Of a stretch of DNA of 31,947 nt, positions 1-21,678 are shown piece by piece. Numbering within the stretch: position 1 is the first letter of the stretch; each line of letters starts with the position of its first letter. The position numbers and the translations under genes are program-made. The notes under the pieces are model-generated. The model made no database searches and was not told where the DNA came from. It saw only the letters and a program-made list of their open reading frames with translations. The DNA is from a virus. Location of the stretch: IMG/VR virus record IMGVR_UViG_3300025476_000006, positions 1 through 31,947 of that record; one strand, 5' to 3'.

Positions 1-994
1 CAGCTAACAAGGTGGGGTCAAAACCAGCACCTGCATAGACAGGAAGTCCTCTTGATGCCCCATGAGCTACTTTCGCCAGGGTAATAGCGTTATCAGCAAC
101 TACTGGAGTTGGAATAGCAGCCCATCCAACGTCACCCTCTGCTCCCGATGCAGTTAAAACGTATGCGGTTGTTCCAGCAGCTAGTCTTGTGGGGGGTCCA
201 CCGGAACCATTATAAGTAAGAATATCTCCACGAGTCCCGTGTTCCATCATTGCTGTAGTCACATAGTCATTTGCAATGGACAAATCATGGTTATGGTCAC
301 TACGAGCCACTGTTGAAGCAGAACCAGCAGCACCTGAAGAGCTTGATGTAACTGCCCCAGGTTCACCTGATGCCAACGCATAGTTATTGATGGGAACCCA
401 GGCTGAACCAGAATAGATGTAAAGTAAATCTTCGTCATCTACAAAGGTACACATGCCTTCTGTTGGGGTTGTAAAAACCCACGTTGAGCCTGATGCGGGG
501 TATTGTGCTATGTAGTTTTCTTTACCTGACCATACCCCAGACGCAGTGGCGGCAATAATATATCTATCGCCAGCAGCTTCCCCCCCAGGAGGCGCAGTAA
601 GACTTTTATCCTTAACACTATCCTTGAATTCTCCTACACCTAAGTGTGCCGCAGTAATAACAGCCTGAACCTTCTCTGCGGACCAAATATCAGTGCTGCT
701 TGTCCCGCTGTCGTTTATGGCTAATCCTGCTGCTGTAGCTCTTACCCAAGTGGACCCGTCACAAAACCATAAACCGTGACTGGTAGTGTCAGTATAAAGT
801 CTTCCAGCTACAAGATTCCCAGAAGGTTCCCCTGCACCTGAAAAACATCTACCAACTACATAGTTAGCAGCAGTAGAACCATCACCGACATAAACTAATA
901 GTTCATCTGTAGTAAACCCTAACTCACCAGCAGCCAAAGCTCCGCGTGTAGTTAGCTGTGCTTTCGTTCCTCGTCTTATCTGAATAGTTGCCAT
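1..994 (-). CDS. tail fibre / receptor-binding protein, C-terminus cut by window edge
   Basis: Reading from the ATG at 994, 331 codons stay open to the window edge, so the C-terminus is missing. The start is set by AAGGAGAT about 7 nt upstream, which lies over the stop of the preceding fibre gene. Residues 3-45 (IQIRRGT, then LAAGELGFTTDELLVYVGDG) match the N-terminal fold of Mtd-like and other phage fibre proteins. Residues about 123-203 resemble DUF2793: GDRYIIAATASGVWSGKENY, then a TWVFTTPTEG turn and a YIYSGSAWV strand. A DHNH motif sits at 233-236, followed by a common fibre segment near 256-293 (GDILTYNGSGGPPTRLAAGT). HxH motifs in fibres such as T4 gp37 bind iron. The role, adhesion to the host surface at the tail tip, is inferred from domains and position; the receptor cannot be told. 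Confidence 0.8.
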   Translation of the reverse strand, partial: MATIQIRRGTKAQLTTRGALAAGELGFTTDELLVYVGDGSTAANYVVGRCFSGAGEPSGNLVAGRLYTDTTSHGLWFCDGSTWVRATAAGLAINDSGTSSTDIWSAEKVQAVITAAHLGVGEFKDSVKDKSLTAPPGGEAAGDRYIIAATASGVWSGKENYIAQYPASGSTWVFTTPTEGMCTFVDDEDLLYIYSGSAWVPINNYALASGEPGAVTSSSSGAAGSASTVARSDHNHDLSIANDYVTTAMMEHGTRGDILTYNGSGGPPTRLAAGTTAYVLTASGAEGDVGWAAIPTPVVADNAITLAKVAHGASRGLPVYAGAGFDPTLLA

Positions 995-10928: not shown

Positions 10929-11441
10929 TTATCTGAATTCAATCATAATTTCTATTACTTCAAGTCTTGTGTCAGTCATAATGGTCGCTACATCATTGTC
11001 TAGGTATTCCAGTAAGCCTTCTGAGCTAACATTTGCAGGGGCAAGCCATGAATCAGATTCATGGCCCAATACCGGAACGAGGTTACTAAATAGCGCAACC
11101 TGCCGAAATGTCTCGTAAGGCTGTCCACTGGTCGGGTCAAAACGAGCCAGCATATAAAGGAATCTTGCCCCTTCGTCTATTGCGTCTACGTCAGCAACAA
11201 ATTCGTATTTGGTTCCGAGATGCGTAACGTCTTCACCAGTGCTAACAACTTTACAAAGCGTAACCTGTGTAGGAGTAACGTACACAACAGGTTCCTCAAT
11301 GGTAGAAGCAGTCGGTGACGGATCAGGTGGGTTTTTTTCATTGTCCCATGCGGTAGTTCGTCCAATAGCAACCCAATAAGTTGAGTTTGTCTTATGGAGT
11401 AGTCCCCTTCGCGCGCGGCCTTGGTATGTAGTGACGGCCAT
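10929..11441 (-). CDS. baseplate wedge-associated protein, 170 aa (gp8 position)
   Basis: The N-terminus contains YWVAIGRTTAWDNEKNPPDP, a form of the 'IGRTTPWDDENNPP' segment seen near the start of a family of phage virion proteins encoded next to DUF4815 proteins. The remainder is a mixed alpha/beta domain with strands such as VVYVTPTQVTLCKVV and a C-terminal LEVIEIMIEFR. No catalytic motif is seen. AGGAGAT lies about 7 nt before the ATG, and gaps to both neighbours are 11-15 nt. Position between the gpI-like gene and the DUF4815 gene suggests a wedge subunit linking the inner baseplate to the outer fibre-bearing ring. Equivalence to T4 gp8 is not shown by the sequence and is only a positional analogy. 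Confidence 0.6.
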   Translation of the reverse strand: MAVTTYQGRARRGLLHKTNSTYWVAIGRTTAWDNEKNPPDPSPTASTIEEPVVYVTPTQVTLCKVVSTGEDVTHLGTKYEFVADVDAIDEGARFLYMLARFDPTSGQPYETFRQVALFSNLVPVLGHESDSWLAPANVSSEGLLEYLDNDVATIMTDTRLEVIEIMIEFR

Positions 11442-17185: not shown

Positions 17186-17637
17186 TACTTCACCACCCTC
17201 ATTGTTAGCTTTATCTTGCCCTGATACGGAAGAAGTGAATTAGGGTTAGCCAGATAGTCGGTAGAAGCGTCAATGTGCAATAGTATAACCGTTTCGTTAA
17301 TATAACTGCCCATGATAAACTTTAGCTTGGGTGGCCGTTTAATAAAGCCTCCGACCTTTGCGTCTTTCATCTTAAATAACTGGTCAACAACTGTCTTTAC
17401 GTTATTGTCGCCTCGTTTGGATCTGCTAACATCAAATTCAATCTTTATTTCTTCAGAATTACCGCATCCGAATTCCTGTATTGGAGAGTTACGCCCTGCT
17501 ACACGAAGCTGATTCCACGGAACCGAAACACTCCTGTCCGTTTTTGATGGGTTCCACTGAAAACTGTAACTACCGGCTCCGCCTTCAGTGTCAATCAACA
17601 TACAGGACGTATTTGAGTGCCAAGCGTCAGTTCCCAT
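17185..17637 (-). CDS. tube-end baseplate adaptor, CIS-tube domain, 150 aa
   Basis: The opening SCMLIDTEGGAGSYSFQWNP followed by VSVPWNQLRVAGRNSPIQEF and EEIKIEFDVSRS fits the CIS-tube domain of contractile injection systems (Afp7/PVC7-like and XkdP-like proteins), where an 'F.fNP..l' start and a 'l.f.l.ld' strand are typical. No C-terminal LysM domain is present, so it is the short form of the family. Gene order tape measure, this gene, hub, spike is the order in which XkdP-like proteins are found. It should connect the last tube ring with the hub. Stop and start codons overlap as TAATG at both ends. Confidence 0.7.
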   Translation of the reverse strand: MGTDAWHSNTSCMLIDTEGGAGSYSFQWNPSKTDRSVSVPWNQLRVAGRNSPIQEFGCGNSEEIKIEFDVSRSKRGDNNVKTVVDQLFKMKDAKVGGFIKRPPKLKFIMGSYINETVILLHIDASTDYLANPNSLLPYQGKIKLTMRVVK

Positions 17638-20285
17638 TAGGTTACAAATCCCATCGGATCTCCGCCGTATCCATGATAATTAACGTCACGGTTCTTCTGT
17701 ATGATGTCGGCTACAACCTGTGCTATTACTCTGCCGTCTAGTTGCAGACGATTCTCAATCTGTGATGTAAGCGTAATTTGAGGAGCGCCCTGCCCTGCTC
17801 CACCGTAAGACATGAACGGCACTGCCATACGCTCTGACAGGCTCATATCGTTAAATCCTTCAGGAGCGGGAGATGCTCCAGGAGGAGTCTCGAACTTCGG
17901 GATATAGGGAGCAACTTTCGCCTTTATGCTGTCAATCGCAGATCCTATGTCACCGATTAGTTCAACAATCTTATTCGGCAGATAATCTATTGCCGCATAA
18001 ACTTGCTGTGCATACATGTCCCATGTCGCTCCAGCTTCTTTTAATGGACCAATTATGCTGTTATTCCAAAAGTCACCTAACGATTGCCATAAGGTTCCTG
18101 AATCCCAAGTCGTCATTGCGGAACCGGAGATGCTATCCCAAATAGGAGCCAATAAGTTTCCAATTCCAGTTACGGTGTCGTAAATCCCTCCCTTTATAGC
18201 TTCTGGTCTTGTCCAAAGTGGTCTTTCCAAAAAGTCGTTGAAACGCCCTGGTTTGGGTTTAACTTTTAGTTCGTTCCAAAAGCTCTTAGCTATGTCAGCT
18301 ATTCCCCCTCCAAACCATTCGACAATATCCATAGTTGTGTTGCCAAGGTCTTTTGCAAGCGACAATACAGTAGGAGCAAGCCAACCCGATGTTTTGCCTG
18401 TTTTGGCTGTTTCTATCATCCTTTCCCGAAGCATTTCAGTTTCCGCTACACCGAATTCTGAAATTAGGTGTTCCTGGTGCTCTCTAATCCAATCGTGAAC
18501 CTTGGAGGGACTCCATTGATCTCTTGCGACAGCCCGTTGTGTGCTCATTAATGTTGTTGCATAATTAAAAGGCCCAGAAATTGCTTTTGCTATAATGTGC
18601 GCCCCAGGCCAATCTGATATTGTTGTGCTAAAATTTTGTAATGAAGTTGAAACTCTTTCATAAGCTGTCCCCGCATCAAGTAATGTCTCTAACACCGTCT
18701 TTGTTAGGTCAGCATCAACGGAATTGGCGATCTTGTCTTTCATCTCCTTGTATCTAGTAGCGAAACCTTCGGAAGTAACAGACCTAATCAACGGTATCCA
18801 GTTTTTTGAAACACCAAACTCTTTGACAATATTGAAGCCTTCAGCCTCAAGGTCTTTCATAATCCCGCCCATAGCTTTTAAGAAATCAGGCGCAATATCT
18901 TCGTCACCCATGTATTTGTTAACGAGCTTGCTTCTTATGGCGTTCATATATTGGGTGTTATGGTCTTTATTCAGCTTCTTTTGTTCAGGCGTAAGGTTTA
19001 GTCCCTTAGTGTCTCTCCATAATCCTGTTCGTTTCATAATCATCTGAGCAAAAGGATCGCCTTCACCTTCAAAAAGGTCTTTAGCCCCTCTGCCTGATTG
19101 CCCTGGTTGAAAGCCTAAGTCAGAAGTCGCCGCCACAAGCGCCAATGAAGCTGGCATAGACCATCCTCTGTCCAATACCGACGGAAGGATGTATCTAAAT
19201 GCGGACTGTATGCCTGGACCCCATATAGCTGAAACAGCAATGGTCTTGCCAATTTGTGCTGCTATGCCCTGTGACAAGCCTCCAATGTCAACATTTCCAA
19301 ATCCTTTTACGTCAGCCTTGCCACCACTTTGGAGTTGTCTGGACACCTCCTCTGGCAGTTTAGTCATAAAGGCCAACATGGTCTTGGTCATAAGTTCAGC
19401 AGTCTTCTCGACACTCATCTTGGAGATCATCGAGACTTTAATTGACGCTTCATTCATCTTCTGCATATTGCCAAAACCAATAGCTGAAACATCAAATGCG
19501 CTTGCAGTCTGCGTCATAGCCTGTATGTATGATTCTGCCGAGACAGTCCAAAACTTCTGGGAAAACATCTTTGCGGCAAATTCAGTGTCTTTTTTAAGGT
19601 TTTGGTCAAACCCCAATGGTGACAGTTCGCCTAAACTATGCGCCATCTTCTGTCGTGAACGACCCAAACCAATGTCTGTCGCTCCGTATTGCGCCGCCTG
19701 TATTCCAGCAGACCACATCCTGTATCTTAACAGGAACCAGGGAGCCTTCCCCCAAATGGAGTCCATGAGGAAATTACCTGTATCATCAGGAGCCATCTTA
19801 GGCTTTCTGCCGCTTCCTCCACCACCTGGCTGTTGGAACGGTATAGGTTCGCCCGCCTTGTTAACCTTCATGGGAGCTATCTGGTAGCCCTTGGCGGTTC
19901 CCATAGCAACATTGTATCTCTCAACTGCGGTAGATAAAGCGCCTAATGCGGAGGCTGCGGCTGATGCTTTGGCAGGAGTATCGGTAATGGCCTTGTTGAA
20001 CAGTTCAGCGTTTCTCGCAGCGGTTCCCATAGAAGATGAGCCTTTAAAGAAGTCACCTAGTTTAGCGCCCTTTACTCCCAAGTCTTTAATCGAAGCTGCG
20101 GCATTACCAAGAGCGGACAAACCTTTAGCAAAGTTCATTATAGGCGCAATGGCTCCTGTAACAGATGTTCCAACACCAACTAACTTATTGGCTACAGCCT
20201 CAAATGAAGCTATAACGTGCTTGTTGGCCTCTACAACCTGTTGAACACCGTCTACCTGATAACCAATGCCAATAGTTTGATCCAC
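17637..20285 (-). CDS. tail tape measure protein, 882 aa
   Basis: The gene follows the frameshifted chaperone with no gap (TAA then GTG at 20285, AAGGGA about 10 nt upstream) and precedes the baseplate hub genes, the fixed place of the tape measure. The protein is long and helical: Ala/Gly-rich amphipathic helices at 20-125, a Gly-rich linker at about 145-165, and a long helical middle with hydrophobic stretches near FLLRYRMWSAGIQAAQYGAT and AISGPFNYATTL. A conserved-looking C-terminal segment QITLTSQIENRLQLDGRVIA precedes the end and is typical of tape measures of this size. No lysozyme, peptidase or transglycosylase motif is visible. Using the known rule of about 0.15 nm per residue, the tail shaft would be near 130 nm; this is an estimate. 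Confidence 0.85.
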   Translation of the reverse strand: MDQTIGIGYQVDGVQQVVEANKHVIASFEAVANKLVGVGTSVTGAIAPIMNFAKGLSALGNAAASIKDLGVKGAKLGDFFKGSSSMGTAARNAELFNKAITDTPAKASAAASALGALSTAVERYNVAMGTAKGYQIAPMKVNKAGEPIPFQQPGGGGSGRKPKMAPDDTGNFLMDSIWGKAPWFLLRYRMWSAGIQAAQYGATDIGLGRSRQKMAHSLGELSPLGFDQNLKKDTEFAAKMFSQKFWTVSAESYIQAMTQTASAFDVSAIGFGNMQKMNEASIKVSMISKMSVEKTAELMTKTMLAFMTKLPEEVSRQLQSGGKADVKGFGNVDIGGLSQGIAAQIGKTIAVSAIWGPGIQSAFRYILPSVLDRGWSMPASLALVAATSDLGFQPGQSGRGAKDLFEGEGDPFAQMIMKRTGLWRDTKGLNLTPEQKKLNKDHNTQYMNAIRSKLVNKYMGDEDIAPDFLKAMGGIMKDLEAEGFNIVKEFGVSKNWIPLIRSVTSEGFATRYKEMKDKIANSVDADLTKTVLETLLDAGTAYERVSTSLQNFSTTISDWPGAHIIAKAISGPFNYATTLMSTQRAVARDQWSPSKVHDWIREHQEHLISEFGVAETEMLRERMIETAKTGKTSGWLAPTVLSLAKDLGNTTMDIVEWFGGGIADIAKSFWNELKVKPKPGRFNDFLERPLWTRPEAIKGGIYDTVTGIGNLLAPIWDSISGSAMTTWDSGTLWQSLGDFWNNSIIGPLKEAGATWDMYAQQVYAAIDYLPNKIVELIGDIGSAIDSIKAKVAPYIPKFETPPGASPAPEGFNDMSLSERMAVPFMSYGGAGQGAPQITLTSQIENRLQLDGRVIAQVVADIIQKNRDVNYHGYGGDPMGFVT

Positions 20286-21202
20286 TTAACGCTTATCCCT
20301 TGCCTTTTCAGACTGTTCCTTTTCCCAATTCCGCTGCTCTAAAAACATCTTCCAGTACTTCCTTCTCAACCTTGACGGCCACGCCATCACATGCTCTGGT
20401 AAGAAGTGGTAGTGATACATGAAGTTGTGAACTTCCCATTCAAGAGCCTCATCCGTATATCTCGCTTCAGGAAAGAACGGGGCTAGGTTCTTTATCCCCT
20501 TGGAAGCAAAAAGCCCCTGTGTGTCAAAAAATTTGACACCTCTTTGTATGAACAAACAGTACAAGCGATGTTGGCAACGGCCTTGTATCCGCAAATCAAC
20601 TTTTCCCTTGTCTCACGAATTGCAAGGTGATCCGCTTGAGGCAAATTAATTACGTCCTCGTAGGTCGGCGGTTTACCGTCTAACTCCTTGAGAACCTGAA
20701 AATCGGCCTGATTAGGATCTGAGTTGCCCGCAGCCTCAAGACCCATTAAAAGCTGTTCCTGTCTCCCGTCTAGGAAACCAATGGATGCTTTTACCTGAGT
20801 CCTTGGGAGCGTAATCTGCAAAACAGGATCGTCTTGTCCCTGTAACGCCTTTGGGAGAGCGACAACCTCAAGTTCAGTAAGATCTTTTTGAGTATGAATT
20901 GGTTCACCACATCTAGGACAAACATTATAAAGGTGTAGAATGTTGCCATTATTGAACTTGTAGTTTTCAACGCTAATCCATTCCTGGTCAGGCACTTTGA
21001 GGTCGAGTATCCCTTCTCTACCTGGCTCTTTCTTCCCGTCTATCGACACAACGATACAGGCCAGAAAGTCAGGTATGACCTCAAATACCTTTTTGCCACG
21101 GCGAGCAAATACCTTGTCAGCGTATCCGTCGCCTTCCTGAATGACTATCGCTCTCCCAAAGGGAGTTTTGAAGCTGTTTTGTTGCTTCTTATACTCTATC
21201 AA
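20286..21202 (-). CDS. tail assembly chaperone, -1 frameshift fusion (gpGT-like), 305 aa
   Basis: A ribosome that slips back one base at the heptamer 20528-20534 leaves the 236-residue frame after Phe225 and continues in a second frame to the TAA at 20286. This gives 225 + 80 residues (join 20286-20528 with 20528-21202 on this strand). The added part begins FDTQGLFASKGIKNLAPFFP and ends in a basic helix (LRRKYWKMFLEQRNW onward). It has no start codon of its own with a ribosome site and ends exactly where the tape measure starts. A -1 shift between tube and tape measure genes to make a gpG/gpGT pair is a well-known tailed-phage feature. The G part would bind tape measure and the T part recruit tube subunits. 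The shift is inferred, not measured. Confidence 0.75.
20479..20517 (-). promoter_or_regulatory. candidate stimulatory hairpin downstream of slippery site
   Basis: Ten bases after the heptamer, GGGGCT (20512-20517) can pair with AGCCCC (20479-20484) across a 27 nt loop. Frameshift stimulators usually start 5-10 nt past the slip site, so the position fits. The six-pair stem with a long loop is modest, and a pseudoknot would need more pairing than I can establish by eye. Confidence 0.3.
20492..21202 (-). CDS. tail assembly chaperone, unshifted product with Cys4 zinc-ribbon-like site, 236 aa
   Basis: This is the normal reading product of the chaperone gene, lying between tube and tape measure genes. 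The start is TTG 21202, with AGAGG 5 nt upstream formed by the last codons of the tube gene. The chain has two CxxC pairs: C95-C98 in VCPRCGEPIH and C214-C217 in ACTVCSYKE. Spacing and the CPRCG form suggest a zinc ribbon assembled from the middle and end of the protein, with a helical insertion (LEVVALPKALQGQDDPVLQI and a MGLEAAGN helix) between them. The second pair lies only seven residues before the slip site, so both the short and fused forms keep it. I know no exact family name; the function is assigned by position and frameshift. Confidence 0.7.
   Translation of the reverse strand: MIEYKKQQNSFKTPFGRAIVIQEGDGYADKVFARRGKKVFEVIPDFLACIVVSIDGKKEPGREGILDLKVPDQEWISVENYKFNNGNILHLYNVCPRCGEPIHTQKDLTELEVVALPKALQGQDDPVLQITLPRTQVKASIGFLDGRQEQLLMGLEAAGNSDPNQADFQVLKELDGKPPTYEDVINLPQADHLAIRETREKLICGYKAVANIACTVCSYKEVSNFLTHRGFLLPRG
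20528..20534 (-). promoter_or_regulatory. -1 ribosomal frameshift slippery heptamer A AAT TTT
   Basis: On the minus strand the chaperone frame reads TCA AAT TTT TTG, giving the canonical X XXY YYZ heptamer A AAT TTT, with T TTT TTG overlapping it two codons along. Slipping back one base gives AAA TTT re-pairing and then TTT GAC ACA CAG, which enters the 80-codon extension. The site sits inside a perfect inverted repeat, GTGTCAAATTTTTTGACAC (20521-20539; 8 bp stem, 3 nt loop). The original frame continues only 11 more codons to TAA. Confidence 0.78.
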
Positions 21203-21204
21203 GA

Positions 21205-21678
21205 TTACCTCTCAATTTTATAGGCATACTTGATTTCAACTTCATCTATTACGTTTTTATCCCAGGCGTTAGAGACTTTATTAGAAGTCCCGTTGTCTGT
21301 GACAAAGCAGTAATAAAACTCAGTCGTCCTCACGTTTATGCCCGCATTATCCATCTCGTATAAACTTGCGTTCCTAAAACATGCGGAGATCGGCATACCG
21401 TTACCGCTTTGTGCATCCTGGCACTCAGTCATCCACTGGTAAAAGTAGAGTCCGCCCGACCCACTATCGGGAACAACAAGTTTCAAAATCAATTTATCGA
21501 AGGTTAATCCACCGGGTTCAGGGAACGGGTGATTCTGTCCTGCGCCTTGGTGTTCGCGTACGGCGATCTTGGCCTTTCCGGGGTTACATTCCTGCACCCT
21601 GGCTGCCACGAGGCCGTTAACCTCAAATCTGTATTTCCACTCTGCTATGGTGTTAAAACCGTAGTTGTCTTCAGCCAT
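21205..21678 (-). CDS. tail tube protein (T4 gp19-like), 157 aa
   Basis: Length and pattern fit the T4 gp19-type tube family. Strand FNTIAEWKYRFEVNGLVAAR opens the fold, GGLTFDKLILKLVVPDSGS gives the conserved 'G....i.l.rg....' strand, YFYQWMTECQDAQSGNG follows as the 'f..W........g' helix, and RNASLYEMDNAG plus VEIKYAYKIER close it with the 'e..e..y..l.r' end. The gene lies 12 nt after the sheath, as in most contractile-tail phages. Rings of six copies form the inner tube through which DNA passes. The chaperone starts 2 nt after its stop. Confidence 0.85.
   Translation of the reverse strand: MAEDNYGFNTIAEWKYRFEVNGLVAARVQECNPGKAKIAVREHQGAGQNHPFPEPGGLTFDKLILKLVVPDSGSGGLYFYQWMTECQDAQSGNGMPISACFRNASLYEMDNAGINVRTTEFYYCFVTDNGTSNKVSNAWDKNVIDEVEIKYAYKIER

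Follow-up and report, generated by a model that had tools for sequence, protein, structure and literature searches.

The putative tail assembly chaperone gene of the phage studied here very likely undergoes programmed -1 ribosomal frameshifting, as judged from the layout of its reading frames and from its relatives. The DNA analysed (hereafter the window) spans the 31,947 bases of a virus record and carries a module of contractile-tail genes on its minus strand. The explanation that accounts best for the data, and that we consider clearly probable, is a -1 frameshift that would yield two chaperone forms, at a slip site specific to this lineage and within a perfect hairpin that is mostly a by-product of the local sequence. 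Strong comparative support attaches not to this hairpin, which had been singled out in the preliminary description, but to a covarying long-range stem located downstream of the slip site in the relatives.

The putative chaperone gene and its probable slip site

The putative chaperone gene sits between the tail tube gene and an 882-aa ORF called tape measure (Table 1). Near its 3' end the minus strand reads TCA AAT TTT TTG in frame, and the sequence, frame and coordinates given for this stretch in the preliminary description, which had recognised a canonical heptamer in it, were all confirmed. The -1 frame is open from 20612 and, as had also been proposed, continues for 80 codons after the slip to a stop codon (20288-20286) that is directly followed by the GTG of the 882-aa ORF. 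The slip had been assigned to A AAT TTT; this heptamer is present, but it need not be the sole slip site, since T TTT TTG overlaps it and the family uses T TTT TTC, a form from which the window's T TTT TTG differs only in the last base. The only further in-frame canonical heptamer in the ORF is CCCAAAG, starting at 20855. The frames, the heptamers, the conserved layout and the RNA covariation in the relatives described below are direct observations, whereas slippage in the phage of the window, its frequency, the heptamer used, the move of the slip site (from protein alignment) and the assembly role are inferred.

Table 1. Coordinates of the features discussed, numbered on the window
Feature	Position	Strand	Basis or remark
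Sheath	23958-21691	minus	PHROG/Pfam family search
Tail tube	21678-21205	minus	PF06841 match
Putative tail assembly chaperone (236-aa product of the zero frame, TTG start)	21202-20492	minus	ORF list and distant homology
Perfect slip-site hairpin (19-mer; 8-bp stem with TTT loop)	20521..20539	minus	Inverted-repeat search and fold
Heptamer A AAT TTT	20534-20528	minus	Fusion would read SNF-FDTQG
Overlapping heptamer T TTT TTG	20531-20525	minus	Fusion would read SNFL-DTQG
-1 frame extension, 80 codons (20528-20289) and stop	20286..20528	minus	Length after a slip on A AAT TTT; fusion of about 305 aa
Predicted downstream stem (20519-20510 paired to 20450-20441) around an inner hairpin	20441..20519	minus	Fold prediction
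C TTT TTG, aligned with the family slip site, apparently decayed	20507..20513	minus	Protein alignments
Putative tape measure gene, 882-aa ORF, GTG start at 20285	17637..20285	minus	Position, and annotation in the relative KX501134

Neither Pfam nor PHROG gave a family match for the 236-aa protein, so the name tail assembly chaperone rests on the position of the gene and on the frameshift layout. The 882-aa ORF had no Pfam or PHROG family match either; its designation thus rests on position, on layout and on KX501134, in which the ORF after the extension is annotated as 'tape measure'. The absence of a named-family match lowers confidence in the name chaperone rather than in the mechanism, as many chaperones would be expected to lack such matches. 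Among six chaperone proteins of relatives that were scanned, two matched T4_baseplate (PF12322) and five matched phrog_150 'baseplate hub', and none matched a family called chaperone. Profile comparison of the window protein with ten relatives (hhalign probability 93.7%, E 1.9e-7) pointed to distant homology, with 20-21% identity. The protein also carries CPRC and CTVC motifs, a putative zinc ribbon (encoded within 20913-20545), whose position is common only to L079, L087 and L088 among the proteins scanned. Rfam gave no match within 20200-21300, and no feature annotated the chaperone frame or the extension in the five public phage records that we viewed.

Conservation of the frameshift layout in relatives

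Scanning with aligned major capsid proteins led to 23 loci, and tail regions were obtained from those eight of 12 records in which a tube match was present. In these eight regions and in L004, that is, in all nine of the first relatives, the protein ends in FF[F/Y], the slip sequence is T TTT TTC, and the end of a -1 extension adjoins the long ORF that follows. A second scan, with an alignment of the chaperones of these nine relatives, led to 53 loci, which together with L038 and L004 made 55 examined loci, several of them from the same records as the first nine. Four truncated genes (L060, L077, L090, L091) and L089 were removed, and the remaining 50 loci, the window and L007 were reduced at 85% identity to 37 sequences (36 relatives and the window). 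TTTTTTC followed by an extension of 49-68 codons was found in 50 of the 50 loci with an intact gene end, which strongly supports the -1 shift that had been claimed for the tail chaperone. The contrary pattern named in the preliminary description, in which the heptamer is absent and the second frame is a gene of its own, occurred in none of these 50; the distant record LR756508, considered below, carries its extension, with an ATG, in the +1 frame.

In the 36 non-redundant relatives the heptamer is invariant: the base in front of the two Phe codons is T throughout, even though the codon to which it belongs encodes seven different amino acids, and the Phe codons themselves are without exception TTT and then TTC. 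The probability of an invariant heptamer by codon use alone would be about 1e-38 if the sequences were independent, which relatives are not. Furthermore, the next long ORF starts between -11 and +40 nt from the extension stop in all 36. An RNA polymerase slipping on the T run, giving transcripts one base longer or shorter, would also be compatible with an invariant run of six T. However, the run is followed by C in 36/36 relatives and stands in the heptamer phase that ribosomal slippage requires, and a longer run occurs only in L069. Six T are also fewer than are usually needed for transcriptional slippage, which we regard as highly improbable here.

The extension had been described as having no start of its own. 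This is not strictly so in the window, whose -1 frame contains a TTG at 20594 with the SD-like sequence AAGGGA 9 nt upstream and more TTGs at 20564 and 20555, and a separate protein begun at TTG 20594 or at another in-frame TTG could account for the open frame. The statement does hold for 29 of the 36 non-redundant relatives, whose -1 frame contains no ATG, GTG or TTG between the point where it opens and the 15th codon beyond the slip site. All 36 keep the heptamer, and we consider independent initiation of the extension very unlikely and retain frameshifting as the preferred reading.

Closer relatives of the window were sought among viral contigs (with the chaperone, tube, baseplate, tape measure and capsid proteins and a DNA pattern) and among genome contigs (with the sheath and capsid), and the only close ones were L007, which is the same as L002 and L003, and L008, which ends before the chaperone gene. 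L007 is therefore the only close relative carrying the slip site, and it is identical to the window there. It differs from the window at one position over 30462-21763 (8.7 kb) but diverges in patches elsewhere (21762-20546 and above 30462), and this mosaic pattern is suggestive of recombination. Window and L002 agree at every position from 20545 to the end of L002, against 61 differences over the 671 nt ahead of the slip site. We had taken this identity as a sign of constraint on the slip site; the idea was dropped, as a patch boundary explains it and near-identity over most of the length makes L007 no test of constraint.

Several other loci deserve mention in their own right. In L089 (2459-3140) an early stop interrupts the chaperone gene, with TTTTTTC and the extension retained downstream; the interruption may be an assembly error, a deletion or a decaying gene. 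The contig of L038 (CANQPD010000018.1), a relative of this phage type, was binned with an uncultured Dysosmobacter MAG, which hints at a host range for the gut members. Four further phage records were also read, and TTTTTTC was found in three of them. The fourth and most distant, LR756508.1 (L102; 225876-228177), is from a 484-kb uncultured phage and has no canonical heptamer; at AAC TTT CTA TTC (about 1420-1700 of the locus) its extension lies in the +1 frame, with an ATG there that is preceded by AGGAGG, so that a +1 frameshift or a separate start is possible; the -1 arrangement is thus not shared by every distant relative.

RNA structures around the slip site

The evidence for a downstream RNA structure comes from several comparisons among the 37 non-redundant sequences, which include the window. 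For 174 segment pairs, a swap test set the pairing within each sequence against the pairing obtained when segments were exchanged between sequences. The strongest pair was +43..61 with +70..88 (z -5.75; positions counted from the first slip base), and +7..25 paired with +79..97 and with +88..106 at z -5.25 and -5.24. A test dedicated to the long-range stem gave z -7.1, with 0 of 5000 permutations as low. In addition, randomising the synonymous codons of the extension weakened the fold at p<0.05 in 24 of the 37 sequences (mean z -2.5), the other 13 not being significant, and the fold was weaker at the same level in 18/37 (mean z -1.8) when the extension codons were only permuted. Counted from the first slip base, the stem begins at 12-14 nt in 16 of the 37 sequences, with an overall range of 7-17 nt.

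Covariation pointed in the same direction. In a covariance-model alignment of 29 sequences, which are the best-matching of 44 sources in an alignment fitted to the model, two-sided changes were found in 52 cells, compared with 17.0 +/- 4.3 in shuffles, and 85.9% of the cells pair, compared with 35-56% in slid versions. The 12 seed sequences gave 10 cells with two-sided changes against 3.4 +/- 1.6. Further pair types were no more frequent than in shuffles in either the 29-sequence or the seed alignment. In clade 2 (nine sequences) a double change was seen in only one of 15 predicted pairs and the covariation term was unfavourable, and 15 of the 44 sources, including the window and L007, had no match to the covariance model on the expected strand at E<=0.03.

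For the window itself, the evidence for a downstream structure is suggestive. The predicted stem begins 5 nt downstream of T TTT TTG (8 nt downstream of A AAT TTT), and the fold of 20550-20435 retains both the slip-site hairpin and the downstream stem, which do not overlap in it, with 3 of 200 shuffles as stable. The outer stem alone gave p 0.08, the window was not significant in codon-aware tests (p 0.175 and 0.335), and the RNA model of the relatives had no match to the window at E<=1. A pairing of GGGGCT with AGCCCC had been proposed downstream of the hairpin; both sequences are present, at 20517-20512 and 20484-20479, but the minimum-energy fold instead pairs CAGGGGCUUU with GAGGCUCUUG further downstream. 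A pseudoknot formed by GGGGCT, AAAGAAC, AGCCCC and GTTCTTT was also considered; it is possible on paper only and we do not claim it.

The hairpin enclosing the slip site is real as a repeat: minus strand 20539-20521 reads GTGTCAAA TTT TTTGACAC, which corresponds exactly to the 8-bp stem and 3-nt loop first described, and the window contains only one other perfect inverted repeat of this size (11046-11064). It had been suspected at the outset that the repeat may be partly accidental. The stem is partly dictated by codons: with the slip site and the downstream arm fixed, one of the 24 synonymous choices for the Val-Ser codons yields the perfect stem, or 6% when choices are weighted by the codon use of the gene. 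Compared with random synonymous versions, the hairpin of the window has p 0.01 by duplex and 0.022 by fold, 1-2% of the versions being as good by energy. The excess over chance is modest and was noticed after the fact.

This excess would be expected if the hairpin were a selected regulator that sets the shift ratio, folding when no ribosome is present, slowing the arriving ribosome or holding back the downstream stem, and so adding to the frameshift. The family data contain a signal of this kind: over the 37 sequences the mean z at the slip site is -0.72 by fold, the lowest of 39 positions along the genes, and -0.48 by duplex, the lowest of 65 positions, with a mean z of 0.05 for a control segment, and strong enclosing hairpins made of other letters are present in L043, L065, L068 and L087. 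However, p<0.05 was reached in only 7 of the 37 sequences by fold and 4 by duplex, uncorrected, and the hairpin is weak or absent in many relatives. The duplex signal falls to second of 65 when the window is excluded. In the swap test the arms gave z -2.6, tenth of the 174 segment pairs, and shorter arms were not significant (p 0.17). That one of the 24 codon choices yields the stem of the window also counts against selection, and the hairpin should be unable to coexist with a ribosome on the slip site. As it must melt before slippage, it could at most tune the event. We regard a selected regulator as unlikely, and the hairpin as most likely a by-product of the slip sequence and its neighbouring codons.

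The hairpin had been presented as the unusual part of the locus, a claim that received weak support: the stem is partly codon-dictated, and is strong in some relatives and absent in others, yet the small family signal does peak at the slip site. In the comparison of related genomes for compensatory changes, which had been suggested as a check, L007 was identical at the site and hence uninformative, and the distant relatives gave a weak positional signal. A conserved embedded hairpin as a family element, suggested when nine relatives were folded, was weakened with 37 sequences and controls.

We also weighed a role of the palindrome unrelated to translation, as an operator or as a terminator on the plus strand. 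There is one terminator-like match on that strand, but 0.9 such sites are expected by chance, and the palindrome is present as a single copy in the window. The same palindrome is found in repeat arrays of L093, L095 and L097, but these arrays lie in stop-rich DNA of contigs without a match to the window proteins, and we hold a DNA or transcript element to be extremely unlikely. The arrays themselves (L093 at 3433, L095 at 7861 and L097 at 851, all on the minus strand) consist of near-identical GTGTCAAATTTTTTGACAC palindromes, the same 19-mer as in the window hairpin, which is probably a coincidence.

An apparently relocated slip site and comparison with known frameshift systems

The slip site of the window appears to have moved 18 nt upstream of its ancestral position. 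The hhalign profile alignment with the ten relatives is ungapped through the C-terminus and sets THRGFLLPR against AIPDFFFPT, and two multiple alignments likewise place GFLLP of the window against DFFFP of the family with no gaps. With this alignment, the slip codons of the family match the TTT TTG that follows GGC in the window, and the intact heptamers of the window are found 18 nt further upstream. Additionally, there are 12 residues from the last cysteine of the zinc-ribbon-like motif to the residue before the aligned Phe in L079, L087, L088 and the window alike. The extensions of the window and its relatives have weak similarity (11-22% identity), and their alignment places FF of the family against PFF of the window 18 codons past the slip site, so that the extension gives no independent support for the move.

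Our first idea had been that T TTT TTG of the window was positionally homologous to T TTT TTC of the family; it was given up after the C-terminal alignments and kept as a rival. An unmoved site would mean either that T TTT TTG is the family site and the C-terminal alignment is misplaced, or that slippage still takes place at C TTT TTG. AAT TTT TT is common to the window and L004, the window heptamer has the family form, and the chaperones are only about 20% identical, all of which would fit such a reading. Against it stand the gapless placement of GFLLP on DFFFP in three comparisons and the shared cysteine distance, and re-pairing in the P site at C TTT TTG would probably be poor. We consider it improbable that the site has stayed in place.

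According to the relocated-site reading, the run AAATTTTTTG would let a ribosome on TCA AAT TTT TTG move back by one base, and RNA structure starting 5-8 nt downstream would probably assist. The programmed -1 frameshift would yield two forms of a myovirus tail assembly chaperone, of 236 aa and, as a fusion, about 305 aa, whose presumed targets are the tape measure and tube proteins, by analogy with G and GT of phage lambda. The slip site would be specific to the lineage, as the relatives examined use a position further downstream. A more elaborate scheme joins both RNA structures: the slip site would be held in the local hairpin, whose 3' arm is, in some members, the 5' arm of the long-range stem, and the ribosome would melt the first and free the second, a switch operating during translation that would set the chaperone ratio. 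The lineage of the window would then have shifted its site 18 nt upstream and rebuilt both elements, with the old slip site inside the new stem. We give this scheme a low probability.

Frameshifting in tail chaperones sets the ratio of two tail assembly proteins. The present case adds a broad set of mostly uncultured and little-annotated myoviruses with an invariant heptamer and a long-range RNA structure covarying downstream, and one lineage with an apparently moved slip site, so that slip-site turnover and the role of the RNA structure become testable by simple reporters. The frameshift layout should also aid annotation in records such as the five public ones viewed here.

That tail chaperone shifting was already known, as the preliminary description had stated, agrees with the literature on lambda-type chaperones, in which -1 frameshifting is well known (PMC5009743), and about 7% frameshifting was measured for one prophage cluster (PMC3711429). 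Upstream hairpins attenuate -1 frameshifting in the SARS coronavirus element and in model systems, as described in two papers (PMC3639245, PMC6321510). The window resembles these cases in that the ribosome has to melt a hairpin close to the slip site, by which slippage could be tuned. However, those attenuators lie upstream and refold behind the ribosome, whereas the arms of the window hairpin flank the slip site and its function is putative. Incompatible structures around the frameshift site act as switching elements in Class 2 umbravirus-like RNAs (PMC10602861). Those are plant virus RNAs that were tested experimentally, whereas competing pairings are a possibility in only some of the relatives and the two structures of the window do not overlap. 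Control by structures on either side of the slip site is also discussed in the PRFect paper (PMC10885494). Our literature search, which covered openly licensed papers only, found no paper on frameshifting in these phages.

Regarding the T4 baseplate family PF12322 and phrog_150, some chaperones of the relatives match them whereas the window protein matches neither. Lastly, a close functional parallel is the G/GT tail assembly chaperone of phage lambda, whose -1 frameshift was reportedly described by Xu, Hendrix and Duda in 2004. The lambda slip heptamer is GGGAAAG. The window differs from this system in its heptamer, in its contractile-tail module and in its apparently relocated slip site, and its relatives differ from lambda in the covarying long-range RNA structure downstream.
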